Of a stretch of DNA of 20,079 bases, positions 2,551 through 16,296 are shown in pieces. The notes beneath the pieces are model-generated. The model searched no databases. It was not told the origin of the DNA and saw only the letters and a list, made by a program, of their open reading frames with translations. The first letter of the stretch is position 1; each line of letters starts with the position of its first letter. Made by a program: the position numbers and the translations under genes. Location of the stretch: positions 1 to 20,079 of the IMG/VR virus record IMGVR_UViG_3300032242_000541; one strand, 5' to 3'. Source of the stretch: a virus.

Positions 2551-3408
2551 TTAGGCCATAGCCGCTGCCATAGCTATTGAGAACGATTTAGTATTGACGC
2601 CGCCAACAGTTTCTTTACCTGCGACTGTTAAGTTTCCTGCACTAATCACAACGTTGCCTGCCGAGTCAGTGATATTTCCAGTGACTGTCAAATTGCCTAT
2701 AATATAAGCATTTGCACCCACAAATAAATCTTTCGCTATTGCAACCCCGCCAGCGGTTGTAATAGATCCTGAACTTGCATTATTGTTATTTGTGTTAGTT
2801 GTATTAGTTGTTGAAATGATACCAGTACTTGAAACTGATATTAATGTACCAACACTAGTTAAACTGCTGGTTAATATTGCTGAATTTAAAGTATCACCGG
2901 TCAATGTATTGGCTGCGGCAGTTACAGTAATCGGAGCAGTTCCATCAAATGCCACACCGTTTATGTTTCTTGCTGTAGCTAATTTAGTGGCACTTCCGGC
3001 ATTACCGTCGATAGCAATTCCGGTTAAATTCTGAGCGGCACTAAGTCTGTTTACAGCAATAGTTGTAGTGCCAAGTACAAATGAACTATTAGTATAGAAT
3101 CCGTTGTCGACTTGTCGTGCAGAACCCGTAATACTTCCGTTAATATAGTTTGTAACTGTAAGATCGGTAAGAACACCAACACTGGTTAAACTACTGGCTG
3201 TAATGTTACTTGGAAGAGCTGTTCCGGTTAATGATCCGGCGTCTGCTTGGGTAATAGCATATCCTAATGCACTCCAAGTCTTAACTCCGTCACCATATTT
3301 GATCTTACGTGTGTCAGTTTCTAAACCAGGTTCTCCTGCACTCAGCACAGGGTTTACTGACAGCCAATTAGCCGCAGTGTCTCTTCTTAGTTTAATTTGT
3401 ACTGGCAT
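2551..3408 (-). CDS. Tail fibre-like protein with Mtd-type N-terminal motif
   Basis: A 285-residue protein. Residues 1-50 carry the pattern LRRDTAANW, NPVLSAGEPGLETDT and KIKYGDG, the short N-terminal domain found at the head of many phage tail fibres and of the major tropism determinant. The rest is fibre-like and repetitive: SSLTSVG occurs twice, and segments such as IDGNAGSATKLATARNING and FDGTAPITV recur in tail fibres of many phages. Near the C-terminus is a GGVAIAKDLFVG...GNLTVTG segment like those of T4-like cyanophage fibres. The ATG at 3408 has AAGGA upstream. It ends 27 bases before the start of the next structural gene and is probably co-expressed late. A trimeric fibre or short tail appendage is inferred; the receptor is unknown. 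Confidence 0.75.
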   Translation of the reverse strand: MPVQIKLRRDTAANWLSVNPVLSAGEPGLETDTRKIKYGDGVKTWSALGYAITQADAGSLTGTALPSNITASSLTSVGVLTDLTVTNYINGSITGSARQVDNGFYTNSSFVLGTTTIAVNRLSAAQNLTGIAIDGNAGSATKLATARNINGVAFDGTAPITVTAAANTLTGDTLNSAILTSSLTSVGTLISVSSTGIISTTNTTNTNNNNASSGSITTAGGVAIAKDLFVGANAYIIGNLTVTGNITDSAGNVVISAGNLTVAGKETVGGVNTKSFSIAMAAAMA

Positions 3409-3461
3409 TTTTAATCCTTATCCACGGGGCTACAAATTCGTCCCTTTACTATGTATTTACC

Positions 3462-3469
3462 TATAAATA
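3462..3469 (+). promoter_or_regulatory. T4-type late promoter octamer TATAAATA
   Basis: An exact match to the T4 late promoter consensus on the plus strand, directly before the only plus-strand gene of this part of the window. Only four bases separate the octamer from the ATG at 3474, so the transcript should begin at or very close to the start codon. Confidence 0.75.
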
Positions 3470-3473
3470 ACGT

Positions 3474-3989
3474 ATGAGCACCCAAACCACAAACTGGATT
3501 TTACCCTCTACTATTAACTATAATGTTGATCCAAACGGAGTTAATACCACCTGGACTGATCCTTATAAAGATACAGTAAATTTAATCTTTCCTATTATTA
3601 CGAATAAAAATGTACGTAGAATAAGCATACACGATACGGCCGCAGTTACGATCATGGGCGATACTGTAGTATTTTCAAACTTTGCGATTCCTACAGTAAC
3701 CACTTTGATCGGACTTAGTGTAGCTATCAGTGTGCGTAGACTAGGTAGGGTTACAGATTATGTTGTACAGCCATTAATTAACGGAACTTACTACAATAAT
3801 AATGCCACAGGATCCGGCGGATTACCCGATTCAATGATCTACGGATCTGCGACAGATACATGGGGAATAACCACAGGATTTAACAGTTCTACTTTTCAAT
3901 TATGTGTACAAGTGGGTCCGCACCCACAATATCCAGGTAACGATAAAGCCATAATAGACTCTGTATCTATACAACTAGTATACTCGTAA
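3474..3989 (+). CDS. Putative late virion protein, 171 aa
   Basis: This gene points against its neighbours and lies between a late promoter octamer and a strong terminator, so it looks like a single-gene late unit. The product begins MSTQTTNWILPSTINYNVDP. It is rich in Thr, Asn, Ile and Val, has no Cys cluster or catalytic motif, and has a short loop YYNNNATGSGG at about residues 106-116. Pattern and composition suggest an all-beta structural or fibre-accessory fold, and its neighbours are tail-type genes. I do not recognise a named family. The start is the first ATG; no Shine-Dalgarno sequence fits, which agrees with the octamer lying only four bases upstream. Confidence 0.7.
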   Translation: MSTQTTNWILPSTINYNVDPNGVNTTWTDPYKDTVNLIFPIITNKNVRRISIHDTAAVTIMGDTVVFSNFAIPTVTTLIGLSVAISVRRLGRVTDYVVQPLINGTYYNNNATGSGGLPDSMIYGSATDTWGITTGFNSSTFQLCVQVGPHPQYPGNDKAIIDSVSIQLVYS

Positions 3990-4014
3990 AAAAACCCGCT
4001 TAGTGCGGGTTTTT
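3990..4014. terminator. Bidirectional intrinsic terminator
   Basis: A perfect 10-bp stem (AAAAACCCGC / GCGGGTTTTT) with a five-base loop TTAGT. It lies exactly between two convergent genes whose stop codons end at 3989 (plus) and 4018 (minus). The A tract on one arm and T tract on the other let it stop transcription from both sides. Confidence 0.9.
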
Positions 4015-4017
4015 ATT

Positions 4018-4662
4018 TTAGTAAGTGCCTTTCGGACTCCATACACCAGTACATTCAGCAAGTCCTTTGCTGTAACCATGCATATAGTGTAAATGTTCGT
4101 GTGAACCTTCTGGATGTGTACAACTATGATGAGATTCTGCCATCAAACCACATGCATAACCCTCATGTAAAGCCGCTTTACGACGTAATGTATCCTGTAT
4201 AGTTTCTGACATTGGAGCAGTAGTCATAGGTGCTTGATAATCTCCAGCGCCTGCGCCGCCCATCGGAGCTTGATCCATAGTACCCATATCATTTTCGTTC
4301 ATTGCAGTGCTATCTGAATCCGATGGAGTTCTCAAGCTCTTCTGTAATTCTGCAGATCCGGTTAATCCCTTACCACCATGTGAATAGATAGCGGCTAATG
4401 TAGGAGGGTCAATCATGCCATTAGTTTGAACTCTACGCTCTGGAGCATTTTGCGGAAACTTACTAGCTACCGAACTAATTAATTTTTGAAAATCCTTAAC
4501 AGCATTAATAATCTTACCAGCGGCTGTTTCTATCGGATCGGACTTGGAAGAATCTGCTGGAGGTGCATCTAACTGGGCAGGATCTGCCGGGGTAGATTTT
4601 GCAGGAACTTCTGCTTCATTTAGAATATCTAAATACTTACGTAGTATATCTTGTTGGGCCAT
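4018..4662 (-). CDS. Late protein with disordered middle and RMF-like C-terminus
   Basis: A 214-residue protein behind an exact late promoter octamer, with AGAGAG as a plausible ribosome binding site. Residues 1-18 (QQDILRKYLDILNEAE) form a helix. Residues 19-48 are Pro, Ala, Ser and Asp rich and probably unstructured. Residues 49-92 contain a helical segment ending in NGMIDPPTLAAI, which recalls the end of a peptidoglycan-binding-type fold. Residues 112-155 are Met, Gly and Pro rich. The last part (165-204) has the spacing of ribosome modulation factor: GYxxG, then Cys 14 positions from that Gly, then HGYxxG. It is also very His rich (SHHSCTHPEGSHEHLHYMH), so metal binding is an alternative. 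Late timing suggests a virion or assembly protein; function is not established. Confidence 0.7.
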   Translation of the reverse strand: MAQQDILRKYLDILNEAEVPAKSTPADPAQLDAPPADSSKSDPIETAAGKIINAVKDFQKLISSVASKFPQNAPERRVQTNGMIDPPTLAAIYSHGGKGLTGSAELQKSLRTPSDSDSTAMNENDMGTMDQAPMGGAGAGDYQAPMTTAPMSETIQDTLRRKAALHEGYACGLMAESHHSCTHPEGSHEHLHYMHGYSKGLAECTGVWSPKGTY

Positions 4663-4680
4663 ATGTGTTCTCTCTTTATG

Positions 4681-4688
4681 TATTTATA
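4681..4688 (-). promoter_or_regulatory. T4-type late promoter octamer TATAAATA
   Basis: The minus strand is an exact TATAAATA, ending 18 nt before the ATG at 4662. It lies between the helicase gene's stop and this late gene, so it allows late expression of the 214-residue protein independent of the early replication operon upstream. Confidence 0.8.
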
Positions 4689-4712
4689 TAAAATACTCTT
4701 GCATGTATTTAG

Positions 4713-6167
4713 TTAGAAATCGTCCGAATCGCCCGGAATTTTATTCAATAATTCACGCAATTTACTGCTTTCTACATGGGCTGTTACTTTAGGTACAGGC
4801 GCACCTGCGGTTGGATCTGTGTATGTTTCACCAGCTGCCGTAATTATTGATTTTTGCTTAATGCTATTCAACAATGTGCTACCTGCGCTTTGTCCTGGGT
4901 TGTTATAATCATCCTCGGACAAATCTGTAATCCTCAGCGTATCCACATTAAAATCCAAGTCAATTTTCATACCAACACCGCTTGAACTACGGGTTTTCAT
5001 CAGCTGTATTTGATAACGTCCGCGCTCACGCATAGCCCTACTAGTAAAGATACCAAACACATTGTCTGCCGTCTGGATCTTACTAAGTCCGCCTGAAATA
5101 TGACTGTGATCAAACTCAACTTCTTCGACAGCACCGCGATTCAACTGTGCCGCAGTTACAAACACGCAATTCTTTTCTACTGCCAAATTACGCAATTCTT
5201 CCGATACATATTTGTCTTTTACGAATAAATTTTCAGCACTAATTCGTTTACTCAATGGCATTAACAAGTCCATATAGTCAACTAACAATACGTCGACTTT
5301 ACGTCCCATTTTAATTTCATACTCTTTCAAATAAGCGCGAATGTCATTGGCTGTTTTTCCTGACGGCATATACTTAACCTGGAACTGCCCAGATTTTTTA
5401 CCAATCATTTTAACCTTCATTTCAACATCATCGATTTGTTTAAAAATCTCTCTAGTTGGAATTCCAGTTACCATCGCATCTACACGCATACTAACAAGTT
5501 CTTCGCTCAACTCTAATGTTAAGTAGATTACATTAAGTCCAGATAATGCATAGTTTACTCCGAGATTAGCCAAGAATAACGATTTACCAGCACCAGAGCC
5601 GCCAGCCCAAATATTAAGCTCACCACGATTGAATCCTCCAAACAGTTTGTCATCAATGCTTTTCCAGCCTGTGGAAATTTGCCCATTTTTATCTTTAATT
5701 GCCATCAATCGACTACGAGGATCTTTAAAATAATCAGTACCCATGTCACGTTGCAATCCTACTTGTACTGCTTGTTTGATTTTTTCTTCTACAGGACCAT
5801 ACTCACCCTTTTCCAGTAAGTCTGCACTTTCTAAAATAGCACGTTCAAGCCCTTTGTGTCGAGTAAACGTTTCAAAGTCATTCATCAGCCATTCAAAATG
5901 TTCTTCACGTAAGTCCTGTGCGGCCTTTAATGTGCTACCAGTAGCCGCATTGATAATGTCCGGAGTCGGCAATACATTATTATCACTAACATATCTCGTA
6001 AGGAATTCAGCCGCATCTTGTAGTCGTCTATCAAATAGTTTGCTGTCAAAAATAGATTGGCAACGCACAAAAGTACCAGCATCTGCCAACATCATTTCTA
6101 AATATACACGCTGAATATCATATCCATAGTCAACGTTCTGTCTTGCTTTTTCTTGTTTTTCACTCAT
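4713..6167 (-). CDS. 41: Replicative DNA helicase, DnaB/gp41 type
   Basis: A 484-residue protein of the RecA-fold, hexameric DnaB-like helicase family, close in length to T4 gp41 (475). Residues 1-140 form the helical N-terminal domain. The motor starts near residue 160 with STGWKSIDDKLFGG. Walker A is GGSGAGKS (189-196), Walker B is LLVDYMDLL (294-302), the sensor-like AAQLNR lies at 339-344, and KTRSSSGVG (391-399) matches the arginine-finger region of DnaB-type helicases. In T4 this enzyme unwinds the lagging-strand template 5' to 3' and binds the gp61 primase, which is encoded in the same operon. The ATG at 6167 follows the carbamoyltransferase stop by 15 nt. No clear Shine-Dalgarno is present, but TATAAT stands five bases before the ATG. 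Confidence 0.95.
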   Translation of the reverse strand: MSEKQEKARQNVDYGYDIQRVYLEMMLADAGTFVRCQSIFDSKLFDRRLQDAAEFLTRYVSDNNVLPTPDIINAATGSTLKAAQDLREEHFEWLMNDFETFTRHKGLERAILESADLLEKGEYGPVEEKIKQAVQVGLQRDMGTDYFKDPRSRLMAIKDKNGQISTGWKSIDDKLFGGFNRGELNIWAGGSGAGKSLFLANLGVNYALSGLNVIYLTLELSEELVSMRVDAMVTGIPTREIFKQIDDVEMKVKMIGKKSGQFQVKYMPSGKTANDIRAYLKEYEIKMGRKVDVLLVDYMDLLMPLSKRISAENLFVKDKYVSEELRNLAVEKNCVFVTAAQLNRGAVEEVEFDHSHISGGLSKIQTADNVFGIFTSRAMRERGRYQIQLMKTRSSSGVGMKIDLDFNVDTLRITDLSEDDYNNPGQSAGSTLLNSIKQKSIITAAGETYTDPTAGAPVPKVTAHVESSKLRELLNKIPGDSDDF

Positions 6168-6182
6168 ACTTTATTATATACT

Positions 6183-7649
6183 CTAGTTAAACACTTTAAC
6201 ACCATAATGGCGTTCAAAGTTTTTCGAATCTGCATGGTTATTAACCATGGGCTTTCCCTTAATATTTAGACTGGTATTAAGTAGCATAGGGCATCCAGTT
6301 TCTTTGTACCATAATTCTAAGAGTTGTCTAAACGGGCTTCCATCGTTCGGTACAGTTTGTACACGTGAAGTTCCATCACGATGCACAATGGCAGGATAGT
6401 GGTCAGGATGCCTACAACGAGCGACCACTTGCATAAACCTACTGTTATCCCAACCGCGAGGCATATCAAAGTACATGTCAACATGCTCTTCGAGTATTGC
6501 CGGAGCAAAGGGTCTAAATTCTTGTCGTTGTTTAATTGCATTTACTCGATCCTTTATATCAGTGCCGCGAGGGTCTGCCAGTAGACTTCTATTGCCTAAT
6601 GCTCTAGGACCGAATTCTGCGCGGCCTCTGGCAACTCCACATATTTTATTCTGTACAATATACTCTACAATTTCTTTGTTGGTTGCACGGTATCCCATGT
6701 CGTATCCTAAGAACGGTGTAAAATCTTTAGGGTCAATGCGCCATTCTGGATGATTAGCCAGCACGGCACCGACTGTACTACCAGCATCACCTGGATTAGG
6801 CATAATCCAAGTTTTATCAAACCATCTACCAGTGAGTCTGTTAGCAAGACAATTCAACGCACATCCGCCCATTAAAACTAGATTTTTACTGTTAGTTAAA
6901 CGTTGAGCTGTTTCTAACAAATTAGAAAACATTTCTTCGTACACCATCTGTGTAGCGTATGCTATTTCAAAGCTGTCTTTTACTGTTAATTCGGGTCGCC
7001 ATTGTGTACACCCTCTATGTAGATTTTGTTTAAATTTAATCTTTTTACCATAACTGATAAAATCGTCTTTGATCGTACTAACTAACGAATCATTGCCATA
7101 CGCGGCCATTCCCATAAGAATATATTCATCCTCATTAGGTTTTAAACCTACACGCTGAGTCATAGCACTATAAAATAAACCTAAACTATGTGGATAACTT
7201 TGACTCCATAGCTTTTTAAGTTTAGTACCAGTAGCTTGCCAAATAGTTACAGTTTCAAATTCGCCAATAGCATCGATGACTAATACACATGCATCGTCGA
7301 ATCCGCTTGTATAATAACCAGCCGCGGCATGGCTTAAATGATGATCCACATATTCTACAGGCGCACTTATTTCATGCCTAGCCATGTAAATTTCAATATC
7401 ATTATCACGTCGTTTCCAGCCCTGTCCTGCAAATAATTGTCTTAAAGTTTTTTTAAAAGGTTTTTCATACCAATAAACTTTATCAGGATAACCGACTTGT
7501 TTGGCCGCCGCAACTAATTCTTTACACAGATCTCTATCATTCTTTACGCCACTATAACGCTCGCTATGACTAGCAAATACTAATTTTTCGTCGACAAACA
7601 CAGCTATTGCCGCATCGTGACTATTGGCGCTTATTCCCCAACTGATCAT
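6183..7649 (-). CDS. NodU/CmcH-type O-carbamoyltransferase
   Basis: A 488-residue protein of the carbamoyltransferase family that moves a carbamoyl group from carbamoyl phosphate, through carbamoyl-adenylate, to a hydroxyl. The N-terminus (ISWGISANSHDAAIAVF) is the actin-like fold opening. The catalytic HHLSHAAAGYY is at 103-113, GGCALNCLAN at 261-270, GRAEFGPRALGNRSLL at 342-357, FRPFAPAIL at 378-386 and LLNTSLNIKGKPMV at 456-469. It is shorter than many cellular members (about 550-600), but all core motifs are present. Its ATG overlaps the stop of the 36-residue gene (ATGA), and helicase follows, so it is expressed with the primosome genes. Phage enzymes of this family are known to act on 5-hydroxymethylcytosine in DNA; sugars or other hydroxyls are alternatives, and no hydroxymethylase gene is in the window. 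Confidence 0.92.
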   Translation of the reverse strand: MISWGISANSHDAAIAVFVDEKLVFASHSERYSGVKNDRDLCKELVAAAKQVGYPDKVYWYEKPFKKTLRQLFAGQGWKRRDNDIEIYMARHEISAPVEYVDHHLSHAAAGYYTSGFDDACVLVIDAIGEFETVTIWQATGTKLKKLWSQSYPHSLGLFYSAMTQRVGLKPNEDEYILMGMAAYGNDSLVSTIKDDFISYGKKIKFKQNLHRGCTQWRPELTVKDSFEIAYATQMVYEEMFSNLLETAQRLTNSKNLVLMGGCALNCLANRLTGRWFDKTWIMPNPGDAGSTVGAVLANHPEWRIDPKDFTPFLGYDMGYRATNKEIVEYIVQNKICGVARGRAEFGPRALGNRSLLADPRGTDIKDRVNAIKQRQEFRPFAPAILEEHVDMYFDMPRGWDNSRFMQVVARCRHPDHYPAIVHRDGTSRVQTVPNDGSPFRQLLELWYKETGCPMLLNTSLNIKGKPMVNNHADSKNFERHYGVKVFN

Positions 7650-7756
7650 TTGTAAATGAACGGATCCCGTTCTCTCAATTCTTTTAAACGCTTTTTAAAA
7701 CGCAAGTGATCTCTTATTGCAAAATAAGGATACAATAAAAAATTTATAAATTTCAT
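7646..7756 (-). CDS. Small conserved-type phage protein, 36 aa
   Basis: A short gene filling the space between primase and carbamoyltransferase. Its ATG (7756-7754) overlaps the primase stop as ATGA, its own stop overlaps the carbamoyltransferase ATG in the same way, and AAGGAGA stands at ideal spacing upstream. The product has a hydrophobic aromatic start (MKFINFLLYPYFAIRD), then a very basic helix (RFKKRLKELRER), and ends in DPFIYK. The N-terminal part could touch a membrane, but it is short. The perfect double overlap and ribosome binding site argue strongly that it is translated. Function is unknown. Confidence 0.8.
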   Translation of the reverse strand: MKFINFLLYPYFAIRDHLRFKKRLKELRERDPFIYK

Positions 7757-8727
7757 TCCATCTCCTTAAACCATTTCTTTGCTTTTAATTGTATTTTAAG
7801 ACTGTTTGATTCTTTAGCTTGTATAATCAGGTATAGTGTCGCTAACTTTCCTAGTTTGATTATAGCATCATTGATGTCCTTGACACCTTCCGGCCAATCA
7901 GGCATGCTGATAGACCATCCTAGTTCTACTGCCTGATCTAATGTTTGTTTGCCTGCTTTATCCTTGTCTGGTACTAAGACAATCTCTTTGTTTAGTTGTT
8001 TAAGTAACCAATTTTGACTGTCTTTAATTTCAGCGCCTAGTAAAGCACATCCGTCAATACTTATCGCATCAAACGGACCTTCTGCTACTATTACGAGTTC
8101 ACGATTATTCCGTTGGTTGTCTAGATTGAACACATACCCGGGCTGTTGCTCGCTTAGGTATTTTGGATTTGCTTCGCTATTAATTGTGCGGGCAGTATAG
8201 CCAACAATCTTATTTTCAAATAAAAACGGAACAATAAGTCTATTGCTAAATCCTACTTTTGGAGTCCAGTAGAAAGGAAAATCTTCTGGGAAAACTTTTC
8301 TATTAACCATATACTCTAGCACTGGTATTAGTTTTTCCGGAGGATCGTTCAACAGGTCCGCAATAGGAACACTATCCATAGGCAATGCACGTTCATCAAA
8401 TTTAGGAATAATATTGCGTATTTCAACATTGCCGCTGTCTTCAAATTTAAGTGCTTCTAATCTTAGTTGGCTGATAATGTCATCGGGAATGTTTAAATCC
8501 CGCATGAATTTATTCATTTTTTGGCTGATATGCCTGCCAGGTTGCCAACTACATTTGAATCCACAATTAAAACAGTGATAGCTTACTGCATCGCCTTGAT
8601 TAACAATAAATCCGCCACGGCCCCTGTCGTCAGTACAACACACAGCATTAAAACTTATCCAACCGCTTGGAGTTACCTTACGTTTTGCAGGCAAGTAGTT
8701 TGTTAATGTGTCCGTGATTATACTCAT
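7753..8727 (-). CDS. 61: DNA primase, gp61/DnaG type
   Basis: A 324-residue primase, near the size of T4 gp61 (342). A zinc-binding region lies in the first 60 residues, with Cys30/Cys31 and the HCFNCGF pair Cys52 and Cys55. A TOPRIM domain follows: VAEGPFDAISIDG (214-226) carries the metal-binding Glu216, and VPDKDKAGK (252-260) carries the Asp pair. In T4 this enzyme makes RNA primers for the lagging strand while bound to the gp41 helicase; both genes sit in this operon. It is the first gene after a strong sigma70-type promoter (8735-8763), with only seven bases between the -10 box and its ATG and no Shine-Dalgarno sequence. Confidence 0.92.
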   Translation of the reverse strand: MSIITDTLTNYLPAKRKVTPSGWISFNAVCCTDDRGRGGFIVNQGDAVSYHCFNCGFKCSWQPGRHISQKMNKFMRDLNIPDDIISQLRLEALKFEDSGNVEIRNIIPKFDERALPMDSVPIADLLNDPPEKLIPVLEYMVNRKVFPEDFPFYWTPKVGFSNRLIVPFLFENKIVGYTARTINSEANPKYLSEQQPGYVFNLDNQRNNRELVIVAEGPFDAISIDGCALLGAEIKDSQNWLLKQLNKEIVLVPDKDKAGKQTLDQAVELGWSISMPDWPEGVKDINDAIIKLGKLATLYLIIQAKESNSLKIQLKAKKWFKEME

Positions 8728-9936: not shown

Positions 9937-9958
9937 TTGGACAAAGACCCTTTAATAG

Positions 9959-9966
9959 TATTTATG
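9959..9966 (-). promoter_or_regulatory. T4-type late promoter octamer CATAAATA, minus strand
   Basis: On the minus strand CATAAATA matches the late consensus at seven of eight positions. It ends 22 nt before the ATG at 9936 and includes the start codon of the divergent gene on the other strand. Confidence 0.65.
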
Positions 9967-10338
9967 GCAAAATTAAGAGACGACATAACACAAAACCTAC
10001 CTTTTATTAGTGTAATTAATTACGGGGAACAAGAATACGTTGGTATTGTGATTAATCAAGATCAATACGTTACTAGTTTTTATGACTTAAACGCTATTAA
10101 AACACCCGAAGAAAAAGCTGATTTCCTGCAGATAGGAGAAACTTGGTGGTGGGAAAGTAATCGGCAATTTCCTATTAATATATTTTGTAGGGTGCAGATA
10201 CTACCCTTTCAATATGCCGTTAAAACATTCAATAGCAAAGATGTACGTATCATACTCGGCCCAGTTGTAAATTTAATGAACCTGACTATGAAACGTGTGA
10301 AACGCAAGAGTGTGCAGTTGGTACGTAAAGTGCGTTAA
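9964..10338 (+). CDS. Conserved-type phage protein of unknown function, 124 aa
   Basis: A single plus-strand gene between two minus-strand units. I choose ATG 9964 (MAKLRDDITQNLPFISVINYG) over an in-frame TTG at 9937, because the longer form would overlap the neighbour's promoter region and adds an unconvincing start. The product has a central FLQIGETWWWESNRQFPINIF segment (split here: FLQIGETWWWE, SNRQFPINIF) that I recall from conserved T4-like phage proteins. It ends in a very basic tail (MKRVKRKSVQLVRKVR) that could bind nucleic acid. A late octamer lies upstream. Its stop overlaps the stop of the converging DnaE-like gene by three bases within a TTAA. Function is unknown. Confidence 0.75.
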   Translation: MAKLRDDITQNLPFISVINYGEQEYVGIVINQDQYVTSFYDLNAIKTPEEKADFLQIGETWWWESNRQFPINIFCRVQILPFQYAVKTFNSKDVRIILGPVVNLMNLTMKRVKRKSVQLVRKVR

Positions 10339-10913
10339 GCATACTCATAACTGATACCTTCACAGATTAAATTCATCTGCACCACGATAGCCATAGCATA
10401 AGCCACTGCGTGAGCTTTCTTAAAATAGTACTCGTCATTTTCCGGTTTCGTCCATACTTCCGACATCACCGTAGTCCAATCTTTCCCAATTAGATAGCGT
10501 TTCGCCGGTCTAATCATTGCTAATACTGCCGCTAATTGCTCTATAGACTTTGGCTTTGCTTGTCGTAGAATAGATCCATGCCCATTCACATGGAATAGCA
10601 GTTGGGTAAAGTCATCCTGTTCTAGTAAGTCCCACAATGGTTCAGTCTCCATAAGTTGTTTAAGATGCTCTTCGCTTCTTACGCCTTTATAAATTCCTAC
10701 ATTTAAAAAATCAATTTTAAAATAACCACGTTCTTCTGCCTGTTTATAATCTATAGTGCTCATGCCTGTAATAGGGTTGTACGGAATAGTAGTACAATAT
10801 ACACCGGTATTATGCTTTTTAAAAGTTCCATTATCTTCAATAGATGCCGGTACATGCTTTAAAATATTTAAAGCATCTGTTCGATCTAAGAAGTCTATAT
10901 CAATATCTGGCAT
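10335..10913 (-). CDS. Miniature DnaE-like (polymerase III alpha-like) protein
   Basis: A 192-residue product collinear with parts of bacterial DnaE. It opens with MPDIDIDFLDR, matching the PDxDxDF palm motif that carries two catalytic aspartates. HNTGVYCTTIP (34-44) matches the HAAGV segment, and GYFKIDFLNV (63-72) matches KFDFLGL with the third aspartate (Asp68 here). HGSILRQAKPKSIEQLAAVL (112-131) followed by RP matches the DnaE finger-region helix. KKAHAVAYAMA (165-175) matches the NKSHAAAYA motif. PHP, tau-binding, OB and most finger regions are absent, so the chain is about one sixth of normal length. The start at 10913 is chosen because TAATG couples it to the stop of the 66-residue gene; an ATG 21 nt upstream is less likely. 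Activity is unknown. Confidence 0.75.
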   Translation of the reverse strand: MPDIDIDFLDRTDALNILKHVPASIEDNGTFKKHNTGVYCTTIPYNPITGMSTIDYKQAEERGYFKIDFLNVGIYKGVRSEEHLKQLMETEPLWDLLEQDDFTQLLFHVNGHGSILRQAKPKSIEQLAAVLAMIRPAKRYLIGKDWTTVMSEVWTKPENDEYYFKKAHAVAYAMAIVVQMNLICEGISYEYA

Positions 10914-11113
10914 TAGTAATCCACCCGTTTCCACTCAATAGCATCGATCTTTTCCCACTGTTGAGTTCCTTCTGTTGTGCGGCCTTGGTATTGCTCGCCT
11001 GTTTCCATATCGATCAATAACCATTTATCAGGACATCTAGTTTTTATCCATAGTTGTCTAGCAACTTCTAGTTCTTCAACAATTCTGCCGTCTTGCAAAA
11101 TTCTAGTTTTCAT
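10913..11113 (-). CDS. Small phage protein of unknown function, 66 aa
   Basis: A short soluble protein, MKTRILQDGRIVEELEVARQ at its start, with a CPDKWLLIDMETGEQYQG segment in the middle and an aromatic, charged end (EWKRVDY). It is tightly coupled on both sides: its ATG overlaps the zinc-finger gene stop (ATGA) and its stop shares a base with the DnaE-like start (TAATG). That places it in the uvsW operon and makes co-expression with the DnaE-like protein likely. No motif is recognised. Confidence 0.75.
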   Translation of the reverse strand: MKTRILQDGRIVEELEVARQLWIKTRCPDKWLLIDMETGEQYQGRTTEGTQQWEKIDAIEWKRVDY

Positions 11114-12509: not shown

Positions 12510-13136
12510 TTATTCCTTTGGTACTAATCTTGCATCAAATGCCAGAACAGTACGATGGCCCGTTCCTTTCCATGGATACACAGTATGCGGCAAATAGCTT
12601 GGAAATAATACCACAGTACCGGGAGTTGGATTATATTTCCAAGTGTCGTTCATGATAAATTTACCAATGTCTTTGGTTTGCGGCATTCTAAATAACAATT
12701 TACTATCACTAGGTGTACTGTTAATTTCGTCTAATTCCGGAGCACTAACATAGATATTTCCGCTAATGTTTCCACCCGGATGTGTATGTAATTCTTGATA
12801 TTCTCCGGGAAACTGTCGTATGGTCCAGATGCTAGTTACCATCGGTTTGACATAGTCTAATTCTTCTGCGCCACTTTGACTTTTTATAAGTTCAATGTAT
12901 CCTTGGCATATATTTTCTAGGAATGAAACTAACCATGCAACATCTAGTTCTATTTTATTAGGATATACTTGTATTTGTTGTCCACCACGAATACTAATCG
13001 CCGGATTACCACTATCATTTAATTCCGGGTGAGAATGTAACAATTCTGTCACAGAATAAATTTTACTAAATTCTACAGGAGGAACATCATCTATTGCTAA
13101 GATGACTGGTTGGAAGTAGGCTACTTTTAATGTCAT
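12510..13136 (-). CDS. Putative 2OG-Fe(II) oxygenase
   Basis: A 208-residue protein with the core of the 2-oxoglutarate/Fe(II) dioxygenase family common in T4-like phages. ELHTHPGGNISGNIYV (115-130) supplies the first metal ligands (His117 or His119) and the first strands. TPGTVVLFPSYLPHTVYPWK (171-190) supplies the distal His184, and GHRTVLAFD (193-201) supplies Arg195 for 2-oxoglutarate. The usual HxD/HxH triad can thus be drawn as His117-x-His119 and His184. Its ATG overlaps the stop of the 168-residue gene (ATGA), suggesting coupled translation. The substrate is unknown: nucleobase, amino acid and small-molecule hydroxylation are all possible. Confidence 0.82.
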   Translation of the reverse strand: MTLKVAYFQPVILAIDDVPPVEFSKIYSVTELLHSHPELNDSGNPAISIRGGQQIQVYPNKIELDVAWLVSFLENICQGYIELIKSQSGAEELDYVKPMVTSIWTIRQFPGEYQELHTHPGGNISGNIYVSAPELDEINSTPSDSKLLFRMPQTKDIGKFIMNDTWKYNPTPGTVVLFPSYLPHTVYPWKGTGHRTVLAFDARLVPKE

Positions 13137-13645: not shown

Positions 13646-15109
13646 TTATTTTTGCCAATCCGTTTTTTCTAACGTAAACGGATATTTGGCTTCCTTGTAA
13701 AATTTCTTTCTTTCTGTAAGATGTCGTTTGGCATACTTACATGTGGACGTAATGTCCCAGATCTGGACAAAGTCTTTGTCCTCTGCTTTTCTAATGCCTC
13801 GCCCAATACTCTGTATAACTCTGACAAAGCTCTTTCCGGGCTCAAGAAGAACCATATTAAAAATCCTAGGGATATTAATACCAACAGCGGCCACACCAAA
13901 AGTCGCCACAATAATCTTGTTATCACTTGTTTTAATTTCGTCATATTCTTCTTTCCGGTCTTTAGTCTTAACCTCGCCTGAGATAAACACAGCCTCTGGT
14001 ATTTCGTTTATTAAAAATTTGCCTGAATCAATTCTATTAACTAGAACTAATGTATTGCCTGATTGTGATATTGTCTTTATTAAATTACTGATATAAATCA
14101 TCCTGTCCTCATCGGTGACAAGATACTTTAATTCTTCTGGATAACTACTGAATTCTTTCACATCCATTAACTGCACTACTTTAACATGACAGTCACTTAG
14201 CACACCTTTAGTTTGTAATTCGTGTGCTTGTATACTGTGAATTACCGGACCAAGACTTGCAAAGATAGCTTCAAACTCGTGTGCTTCTTTAGGAACTGTT
14301 CCTGTTAGTCCCCAGCGAATTGGCGCATTACACAAGTTTTGTGTAAGTAGATTTTTCAATACTTCCGCTTTGGCCATGTGAACTTCGTCGACAATGACAG
14401 TCTTAACGCCATCGAGAAATTCTGCCAATGTTACAATATCATGTTCTTGATTTTTACTTTTCTTATCAAGTATATTAAGACTTTGCCAAGTACAAATTGT
14501 GTGAGTTTTGTTTAAATCTTTGCGATCACCGTAATAAACACCAACGTCCAATCCGCAATTAATAAAATCTTCTTCGGTCTGTTCAACTAGCGACTTGTTA
14601 GGTACAATGGTAATAGTTCTACCGAACGACTCGCATAACTTACTTAAAGTCGCGGTGATAATAGTCTTACCTGCGCCAGTCGCAACTTCTTGCAATGCCT
14701 GTGGATTTTTAAGAAAATTGTTAATTACATCTAGTTGATAATCTCGTAGTCGAATAGGCTCGCCTTCTTTTTGATGTCCAATTGGCCAACATCTATCTCC
14801 CCAGAAATCTTCTGTAACTTCCGGAAAGGCCAGCTTAATCGGTTCTCTTAGATCCTCTACTTCTTCCAGCGAAATACCCATACCGTTGAGTATTTGCAAG
14901 ACTTTTTCTAGCTGATTCAAATAGCCGTTGCCACCGAGTCCGAATAAACTTACTGTACCATCCCATCGGCCTAATTTATATGCAGGATGATATCTAGCGT
15001 AGGGTGCAAAAAATTTAAATGCATTTGCTAACTTCTTTCGTGCATCTAACTCAAGCCCTTCTATCTTGATATTAACCTCATCTTTTATGACTAATTTTAC
15101 GATCGCCAT
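13646..15109 (-). CDS. uvsW: UvsW-type DNA/RNA helicase
   Basis: A 487-residue superfamily 2 helicase, close to T4 UvsW (about 500). Residues 1-110 form the N-terminal domain typical of UvsW, with HPAYKLGRWDG at 41-51. LRDYQ (121-125) precedes motif I ATGAGKT (143-149). Motif II is DEVH (241-244), motif III GLTGT (267-271), and motif VI QSIGRGIRK (433-441). In T4 this enzyme unwinds R-loops, regresses forks and migrates branches, which helps switch from origin-dependent to recombination-dependent replication. It overlaps the 399-residue gene by 13 bases, so the two are co-expressed. All motor motifs look intact. Confidence 0.95.
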   Translation of the reverse strand: MAIVKLVIKDEVNIKIEGLELDARKKLANAFKFFAPYARYHPAYKLGRWDGTVSLFGLGGNGYLNQLEKVLQILNGMGISLEEVEDLREPIKLAFPEVTEDFWGDRCWPIGHQKEGEPIRLRDYQLDVINNFLKNPQALQEVATGAGKTIITATLSKLCESFGRTITIVPNKSLVEQTEEDFINCGLDVGVYYGDRKDLNKTHTICTWQSLNILDKKSKNQEHDIVTLAEFLDGVKTVIVDEVHMAKAEVLKNLLTQNLCNAPIRWGLTGTVPKEAHEFEAIFASLGPVIHSIQAHELQTKGVLSDCHVKVVQLMDVKEFSSYPEELKYLVTDEDRMIYISNLIKTISQSGNTLVLVNRIDSGKFLINEIPEAVFISGEVKTKDRKEEYDEIKTSDNKIIVATFGVAAVGINIPRIFNMVLLEPGKSFVRVIQSIGRGIRKAEDKDFVQIWDITSTCKYAKRHLTERKKFYKEAKYPFTLEKTDWQK

Positions 15110-16296
15110 GTGTTAGCTTTTGCCTCTATAATGCTTTCTTTTTCCGCGTGACTAATAATTAAATCACACCGGTTACTGTAAATTGCTGTCTTACTATGAC
15201 GCAAACTAGTACCTAACACTATAACACTTTTCGCCGCCCAATCGCAATCTTTTAGGAAAAATTTTGGTAATTTTCCAGTCTGTACACAGGCTACTTGTGT
15301 GTCAGCAGTCAACGGACTATTGTATTGCTTGTCTTTTATTAGATTATTAAATTCCTTGCCAGTGTCGGTATTTTCGAGTCTAAAATAAATTCCAATGTTG
15401 TCTGTGATTCCATTTTTTTCCATAGAATCTGAAAAATTCTGGAGATTTTTCACATAGTCATTGCTGTTGTTAGAGTCAAATACAACCAGTATCGGCAGTC
15501 GATCAATCGATTTTAATGTTGCTACTAATTCTGTTAAATCGTGCAAACTGCTGTTGATCCAAATCTTTGTACTAGATCTGTGTACTATTAAATCCGACAA
15601 ATTTCCGTATTTTTTCGGTGGATTTTTCACAAAATATTGGTAACGTATACTACGATCCTGACGCATTGTTTCGTTGATAAGATCGAGAGGCCCGCATTCT
15701 TTTTCTAAAGTTATTTTTAGATTAGTTGGTAAAATCTCTTCGAAAGTATAATTTGCCTTGATATCGGAAATTTCGTATTTTTTAATAATTTCGTAAAAAT
15801 TAGTGATTTTCTGGTCAACTTCAAACCGATATGATTTTAGCGACTCGATCAAGCATACAACGTTCTTTTCGGTCAATGCATAGTGCCAGCGGTTGTTAGA
15901 TATTTTTGCAATTTGACCAAACTCTCCAGTTGATATGTGATGCAGTACATCACGTATGCGAGTATTATGGGTAAATTCCACTGCTATAACTGATTCTTCA
16001 TCGACATTTTTGGTCAGAAAGATTTTTCTAATATTTTCGATAATTCTAAATGGCCGAGACCATAAATTATTTTCTAAGATTTCTATTATGTCAGACTCGA
16101 CATCTCTTAGTTGTAATCTGTATTCATATAAAATCTTATGTAGTAACTTACCTTGATTTTCTGTGATAAAACTAGGCAAGCAAACGCTTGTACTAAGACT
16201 CTTTAATACTTTTAAATCTTTCTTGTTGATAAAATTCGAAAATTTCTCAAGTCCGTTATCGCTAATTTTAGTAAGTAGGTTATCAATGGTCGTCAT
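15097..16296 (-). CDS. Unknown 399-aa protein, first gene of the uvsW operon
   Basis: A 399-residue protein not recognised. The N-terminal ~210 residues are helical and charged (IIEILENNLWSRPFRIIENI, NTRIRDVLHHISTGEFGQIA). The C-terminal half looks alpha/beta, with short hydrophobic strands RLPILVVFDSNN, TQVACVQTG and KSVIVLGTSLR, reminiscent of a RecA-like or Rossmann layer, but I see no Walker A, DExx or other nucleotide-binding signature. It is the leading gene behind a strong sigma70-type promoter and overlaps uvsW by 13 bases. It could be a partner of UvsW; that is inference. ATG 16296 is the first in-frame start and lies only six bases after the -10 box. Confidence 0.8.
   Translation of the reverse strand: MTTIDNLLTKISDNGLEKFSNFINKKDLKVLKSLSTSVCLPSFITENQGKLLHKILYEYRLQLRDVESDIIEILENNLWSRPFRIIENIRKIFLTKNVDEESVIAVEFTHNTRIRDVLHHISTGEFGQIAKISNNRWHYALTEKNVVCLIESLKSYRFEVDQKITNFYEIIKKYEISDIKANYTFEEILPTNLKITLEKECGPLDLINETMRQDRSIRYQYFVKNPPKKYGNLSDLIVHRSSTKIWINSSLHDLTELVATLKSIDRLPILVVFDSNNSNDYVKNLQNFSDSMEKNGITDNIGIYFRLENTDTGKEFNNLIKDKQYNSPLTADTQVACVQTGKLPKFFLKDCDWAAKSVIVLGTSLRHSKTAIYSNRCDLIISHAEKESIIEAKANTWRS

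Follow-up and report, generated by a model that had tools for sequence, protein, structure and literature searches.

What is a 192-residue protein with the signatures of bacterial DNA polymerase III (Pol III) alpha doing in a T4-like replication cluster? The question is raised by a 20,079-nucleotide stretch of viral DNA (the window, i.e. the whole stretch that we analysed; positions 1 to 20,079 of IMG/VR record IMGVR_UViG_3300032242_000541). In this window, a minus-strand open reading frame (ORF) starts with the ATG at 10913, codes over 10338-10913 and stops at 10335-10337. A preliminary description had read the product as a stand-alone miniature DnaE. Our analysis gives a different answer. 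The gene (10335..10913 including the stop) probably encodes one half, the C-terminal one, of a minimal Pol III alpha that is split in two. Its two chains would share one active site and work alongside a family B polymerase (PolB) as an accessory enzyme for short patches, either a polymerase or a nucleotidyltransferase. We base this on the ORF itself, its match to PHROG 11778, tblastn searches, an AlphaFold model and fold alignments.

The signature segments listed in the preliminary description, from PDIDIDF to KKAHAVAYA, do follow each other in that order in the 192-residue protein (all on the minus strand). PDIDIDF (residues 2-8, 10890..10910) provides Asp3 and Asp5, which align with D401 and D403 of E. 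coli DnaE, and KIDFL (residues 66-70, 10704..10718) provides Asp68, the counterpart of D555. These three E. coli residues are the catalytic ones. A palm with the three catalytic aspartates, as in a full family C polymerase, is present in the small protein, as had been claimed. HNTGVY (residues 34-39, 10797..10814) resembles, by eye, the HAGGV segment. Pfam and profile alignments identify the finger helix segment LRQAKPKSIEQL...IRPAK (residues 116-138, 10500..10568), and profile alignments also identify FKKAHAVAYA (residues 164-173, 10395..10424). The upstream palm segment with GRGS is not in this protein, whose N-terminus reads MPDIDIDF. That PHP, OB and the greater part of the fingers are missing, also pointed out before, agrees with Pfam and with the fold alignment (thumb and fingers are domain names of E. 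coli DnaE). The PHP domain had no Pfam match in the C-terminal half or in three of its partner proteins, described below.

The protein belongs to a family of large phages. It matches PHROG 11778, annotated as 'DNA polymerase', over residues 3-185 (E 2.8e-68), which chance could not produce. tblastn retrieved the C-terminal half in 63 phage records, with less than 60% identity throughout, and in 61 of them a single place covers at least 80% of the query. Among the matches listed (60 of the 63, with some phages present twice), 57 records are 284-490 kb long, and the carriers include RaK2, 121Q, PBECO4, Atu_ph07, PA5oct, Paride, Munch and XacN1. Another carrier is phage Sharanji, for which the record gives E. 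coli K12 MG1655 as host. Three stretches of the family profile, weak when taken singly, follow the same order as in E. coli DnaE: residues 1-18 align with 399-418, 93-137 with 596-641 and 159-175 with 751-767.

The predicted structure settles the relationship of the C-terminal half to Pol III alpha. The AlphaFold model, built with 96 sequences, has a mean predicted local distance difference test score (pLDDT) of 92.2. In VIA-align, 188 of its residues, between 1 and 190, align with the stretch 461-841 of 3e0d_A (Z 9.8, root-mean-square deviation 3.7). With the E. coli structure 2hnh, 182 residues between 2 and 189 align with the stretch 401-781 (Z 8.8, deviation 3.9). The first 14 rows are Pol III alpha chains and three 'DNA polymerase' entries, which look PolC-like by their size and numbering, and row 15 has a Z of 2.8. 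Foldseek against the PDB returns Pol III alpha in rows 1-15, except for one entry titled only 'DNA polymerase' (best E 8e-4), and the first unrelated structure comes at an E of about 1. The template modelling scores are low (0.38-0.51, normalised by the query), as would be expected if segments are deleted. The DnaE-like fold presumed in the preliminary description is the one that AlphaFold predicts.

Where is the remainder of the palm? The window holds the C-terminal half only, and the partner piece is absent from its 20 kb. We searched ten named phage genomes whole with PF07733 (palm family), and each of them (10/10) has a single match that passes the cut-off, at a place away from the C-terminal half and spanning profile positions 13-125 at most. 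In the related phages the GRGS palm segment has therefore not been lost, as a stand-alone miniature would imply, but is encoded by a separate gene of about 170 codons, and we rejected the stand-alone reading. The partner frames measure 169-213 residues from stop to stop and have endings of the EFLN, EFLK or EFFR type, at a position where E. coli DnaE reads FERFLNPERVSMPDFDVDF. Of 160 IMG/VR loci, 154 have a partner that stops one residue past the EFL-type ending. As the partner ends in this way and the C-terminal half starts with MPDIDIDF, it is the palm that is interrupted. Some five residues of DnaE are missing between the pieces, which meet nearly seamlessly at DnaE 'FERFLNPERVS-MPDFDVDF'. 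The two genes are 15 to 224 kb apart in the ten named phages, and a motif scan of 377 of 378 loci (E. coli dnaE left out; most of 3-10 kb) found none with both pieces.

Of the ten partners, three were scanned, and they match PHROG 11127 (E from 2.2e-50 to 3.1e-85); a model of the partner from the closest long relative (L380:3001-3504) has a pLDDT of 94.5. Only Pol III alpha or PolC-like chains occupy its first 14 structural rows (Z 7.9-12.5, residues 59-168), and the next row has a Z of 2.5. Gly134, Gly136, Arg137, Gly138, Ser139 and Ser140 are invariant in 128/128 distinct partner sequences, and also in the 49 distinct sequences that were found without the GRGS pattern. The first 60 or so residues of the partner are confidently predicted and have no alignment in the structural rows seen; this block is present in every partner scanned against PHROG 11127. 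A PHP tail in the partner N-terminus was considered and rejected: HMMER spans E. coli 209-393, but the profile-profile alignment covers only about 318-394 and the structural one 270-393.

The two halves tend to occur in the same genomes. Among the matches listed (60 of the 63 C-terminal-half records; 60 partner records, with 26 further ones), 57 of the 60 records with the C-terminal half are also in the partner list, and two of the other three (MG592671 and OR228459) carry the partner by direct search. In IMG/VR, seven of the eight records brought in by the partner have the C-terminal half, while two of the 13 brought in by the C-terminal half have the partner (270 and 181 kb); co-occurrence in 8/21 of these records is partly by construction. 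PolB is over the cut-off in all ten named phages and in nine of the ten IMG/VR records carrying the partner. Family A polymerase was considered and rejected, with no match over the cut-off in any of the ten phages and one sub-threshold match in 121Q. In the closest long relative of the window (G002, IMGVR_UViG_3300024503_000015, 270 kb), the C-terminal half, with 81% identity, occupies 6825-7388. Its partner lies 184 kb away at 191421-191918, and PolB is near 165 kb. PolB, like the partner, lies outside the window; we infer that the window's own phage also has the partner. A mirror-tree comparison of the halves in 19 genomes gives a correlation of 0.71, reached by 0 of 5000 shuffles; shared phage ancestry is uncorrected in this value, which indicates at most that the halves are co-inherited.

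Such a protein is of a kind already described. Iyer, Anantharaman, Krishnan, Burroughs and Aravind (2021, Viruses 13:63; PMC7824862) reported that 'group 2.2' jumbo phages, Atu_ph07 included, have a minimal Pol III alpha of a type specific to phages. Its parts are separate proteins whose genes lie far from each other, and a family B polymerase is encoded alongside. The window protein belongs to this kind and corresponds to the C-terminal piece: a palm with the metal-binding aspartates and a template-binding segment, and no other Pol III domains. The setting, called unexpected in the preliminary description, had thus been reported in 2021 for this phage group. The window member differs in coming from an uncultivated phage fragment, with the partner outside the 20 kb. 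The same authors infer an active two-chain enzyme, suggest cooperation in the synthesis of one strand or in repair, and propose an ancestral origin before the last universal common ancestor. Single pieces had also been noted in two earlier phage papers: CBB_328, a truncated Pol III alpha with 172 residues (PMC5259590), and the Pol III alpha subunit gp316 of Atu_ph07 (PMC6102473). GenBank records name the pieces too, e.g. both in Phosso. PHROG 11778 and PHROG 11127 match the respective halves over their whole length and both are called 'DNA polymerase', but the library keeps them as separate families and does not state that they are two halves. We found no report of a biochemical test of the split minimal Pol III alpha in the parts of the open-licence literature that could be consulted. 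What is added here to the description of 2021 is the break site, the conservation of residues and the models. When compared with the bacterial DnaE structures of E. coli, Thermus and Mycobacterium, the phage pair has in common the palm and finger core fold, the motifs, the catalytic aspartates and GRGS. In contrast, it lacks PHP, the helix-hairpin-helix (HhH) and the OB part, has large gaps in the core and is encoded by two genes.

The conservation of the active site was assessed in relatives from IMG/VR. The gene was extracted by hidden Markov model (HMM), with motifs not required, from 238/238 loci, giving 204 distinct sequences including that of the window. Asp3, Asp5 and Asp7 are aspartate in 202/202 distinct sequences with a residue there, and Lys66, Asp68 and Arg135 are kept in 203/203, as are His34 and Gly37. 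MPDIDIDF was one of the six patterns used to find the loci. Among the 141 distinct sequences found without the aspartate motifs in the pattern, with identities down to 25%, Asp3, Asp5 and Asp7 are still invariant (139/139), and so are Lys66, Asp68 and Arg135 (140/140). The conservation of FKKxH in these 141 sequences is partly due to selection, as FKKxH was a search pattern. The palm aspartates, whose conservation the preliminary description had proposed to check, are therefore invariant in these relatives.

If the pair is an enzyme, the two chains would associate as a heterodimer and rebuild one palm. The C-terminal half would bring the metal-binding aspartates and the finger helix and contact template and primer, while the GRGS loop of the partner would hold the phosphates of the incoming deoxynucleoside triphosphate. 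Since there is no thumb, a distributive enzyme is expected, suited to short synthesis, and the task of the pair may be gap filling, repair or the synthesis of one strand beside the family B replicase. This reading is favoured by the fold, the presence of the partner in the ten named phages and the way in which the break fits. The invariant active-site residues of both halves, the low substitution ratios given below, the occurrence of PolB in the ten named phages and the position of the two genes near primase, helicase and clamp loader also speak for it.

Several observations weigh against a split polymerase. Sequence likeness to DnaE is weak: the Pfam finger domain scores 14.5 bits with the single sequence, below the cut-off of 22, and the NCBIfam polc model scores 19 bits, below 434. 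The best E of the family profile against the PDB is 0.0018, all nine matches up to an E of 0.1 being Pol III alpha chains. The 381 residues of 3e0d_A from 461 to 841 are matched by 188, with no thumb and no central part of the fingers. The distribution of the halves also has gaps. PP728206 (unverified, 109 kb, and possibly incomplete) has the C-terminal half and PolB and no partner; the 11 of 13 IMG/VR records without partner are possibly fragments (58-150 kb); and G016 (191 kb, possibly incomplete) has the partner, no C-terminal half and no PolB.

The missing thumb and middle fingers also speak for the main rival, a non-catalytic scaffold. Here the reduced palm would bind primer-template, nucleotides or replisome proteins, e.g. 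as an adaptor between clamp loader, primase and PolB. The same phages have a full PolB, and both halves lie near replisome genes; a clamp loader gene, for example, is a few genes from the partner in RaK2, Atu_ph07 and Paride. Yet binding alone would hardly demand that Asp3, Asp5, Asp7, Lys66, Asp68 and the GRGSS of the partner remain invariant at pairwise identities as low as 25%, and we regard the scaffold as less likely than the enzyme. A decoy that binds host DnaE, the clamp or its partners and stops host replication finds support in the likeness to DnaE only. Such an inhibitor has no need of invariant catalytic residues, and the gene sits with replication genes and is kept at low identity across phages of many hosts, which makes the decoy very improbable. 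The least credible reading, a decaying relic of a captured dnaE gene, would explain why large parts of DnaE are missing, but it has no positive support: the ratio of nonsynonymous to synonymous substitution rates (dN/dS) is 0.06-0.18 in the 12 least-diverged pairs of relatives and 0.06-0.08 for the window against its relatives (13 comparisons, 6 of which allowed an estimate of dS), the HMM matched in all the fetched loci with few cut copies, and both separate genes are kept in the ten named phages.

A split at the same site occurs in a phage DnaE of full size, which is perhaps a new observation. Tenacibaculum phage Larrie (ON950054, L465) encodes, at 2646-6226, a DnaE as two adjacent genes broken at FERFLN / PDIDSDF, i.e. 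at the same palm site as in the jumbo-phage pair. Unlike this pair, it has full size, with PHP, fingers and HhH, its genes are adjacent, and the phage has no PolB match. The first protein carries a tail of 56 residues at the break, and the second has 19 before the motif. An intein remnant was considered, and the Pfam Hint domain has no match up to an E of 1. The DnaE of Gilda and Leopard are broken elsewhere, between PHP and palm. Larrie thus shows that a DnaE which is ordinary in other respects can be broken at this palm site; it is no proof of a derived origin of the jumbo-phage form. We tentatively suggest that two short chains of about 170 and 190 residues, lacking thumb and PHP and working beside PolB, are the smallest active family C polymerase, and that Larrie hints at a palm break that is a recurrent, tolerated step of reduction and not ancestral. 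A full-length DnaE is also found in OR844993 (L466, 'Staphylococcus phage SA 1306 Kay', unverified), amid genes that by eye resemble bacterial housekeeping genes; this record probably holds host chromosome.

The neighbours of the gene in the window agree, by PHROG and Pfam, with the earlier statement that a condensed family C relative lies amid T4-like replication genes. On the same strand, the replication and recombination cluster comprises the single-stranded DNA-binding protein, UvsX, UvsY, the UvsW-like helicase, small genes, the polymerase half, the primase and the DnaB-like helicase. A 66-residue ORF (10913..11113, minus, PHROG 4098) lies directly upstream of the gene of the polymerase half. 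Its stop shares a base with the ATG of the latter (TAATG), and translational coupling is possible because of this overlap. A small antisense gene (9937..10338, plus, PHROG 11637, no Pfam match) lies tail to tail with the gene of the polymerase half and overlaps its stop. An opposite-strand gene is directly downstream of the C-terminal half in 9/10 annotated loci, with one gene between them in XacN1. The other minus-strand genes include a gp61-like DNA primase (7753..8727) and a gp41-like, DnaB-like replicative helicase (4713..6167), both by PHROG, and a UvsW-like DNA helicase (13646..15109), which matches DNA helicase PHROGs and is named UvsW by synteny with RaK2. Primase and helicase, which adjoin in RaK2, 121Q and Munch, are separated in the window by a NodU/Nol-like carbamoyltransferase (6183-7649, minus), which matches PHROG 1601 and exceeds the cut-off for both Pfam domains, N and C. 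A 2-oxoglutarate-Fe(II) oxygenase gene (12510-13136, minus, PF13759 over the cut-off) lies between the polymerase half and the UvsW-like helicase gene. The latter adjoins a 399-residue ORF (15097-16296, minus) that, at the limits applied, matches no PHROG and no Pfam family. Rfam, at the gathering threshold, and a tRNA scan gave no match in the window.

This gene order recurs in other phages. The C-terminal half is followed by a small antisense gene, one or two more genes, and primase and/or helicase in Phosso, Atu_ph07, Paride, RaK2, 121Q, SCTP-2, Vibrio phage 2.275.O and Munch, where some genes are labelled 'hypothetical' only; the CM1 record is without annotation. The order around the C-terminal half is different in XacN1.

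If the pair is active, it would define the least that is needed for a family C polymerase, show that two chains can together make up its active site, and mean that jumbo phages possess a further polymerase unrelated to their main one. Because of the invariant residues and the cultivated carrier phages, this function is directly testable. The pair is also relevant to the question whether minimal forms of this sort are ancestral, as proposed by Iyer et al., or arose by reduction.
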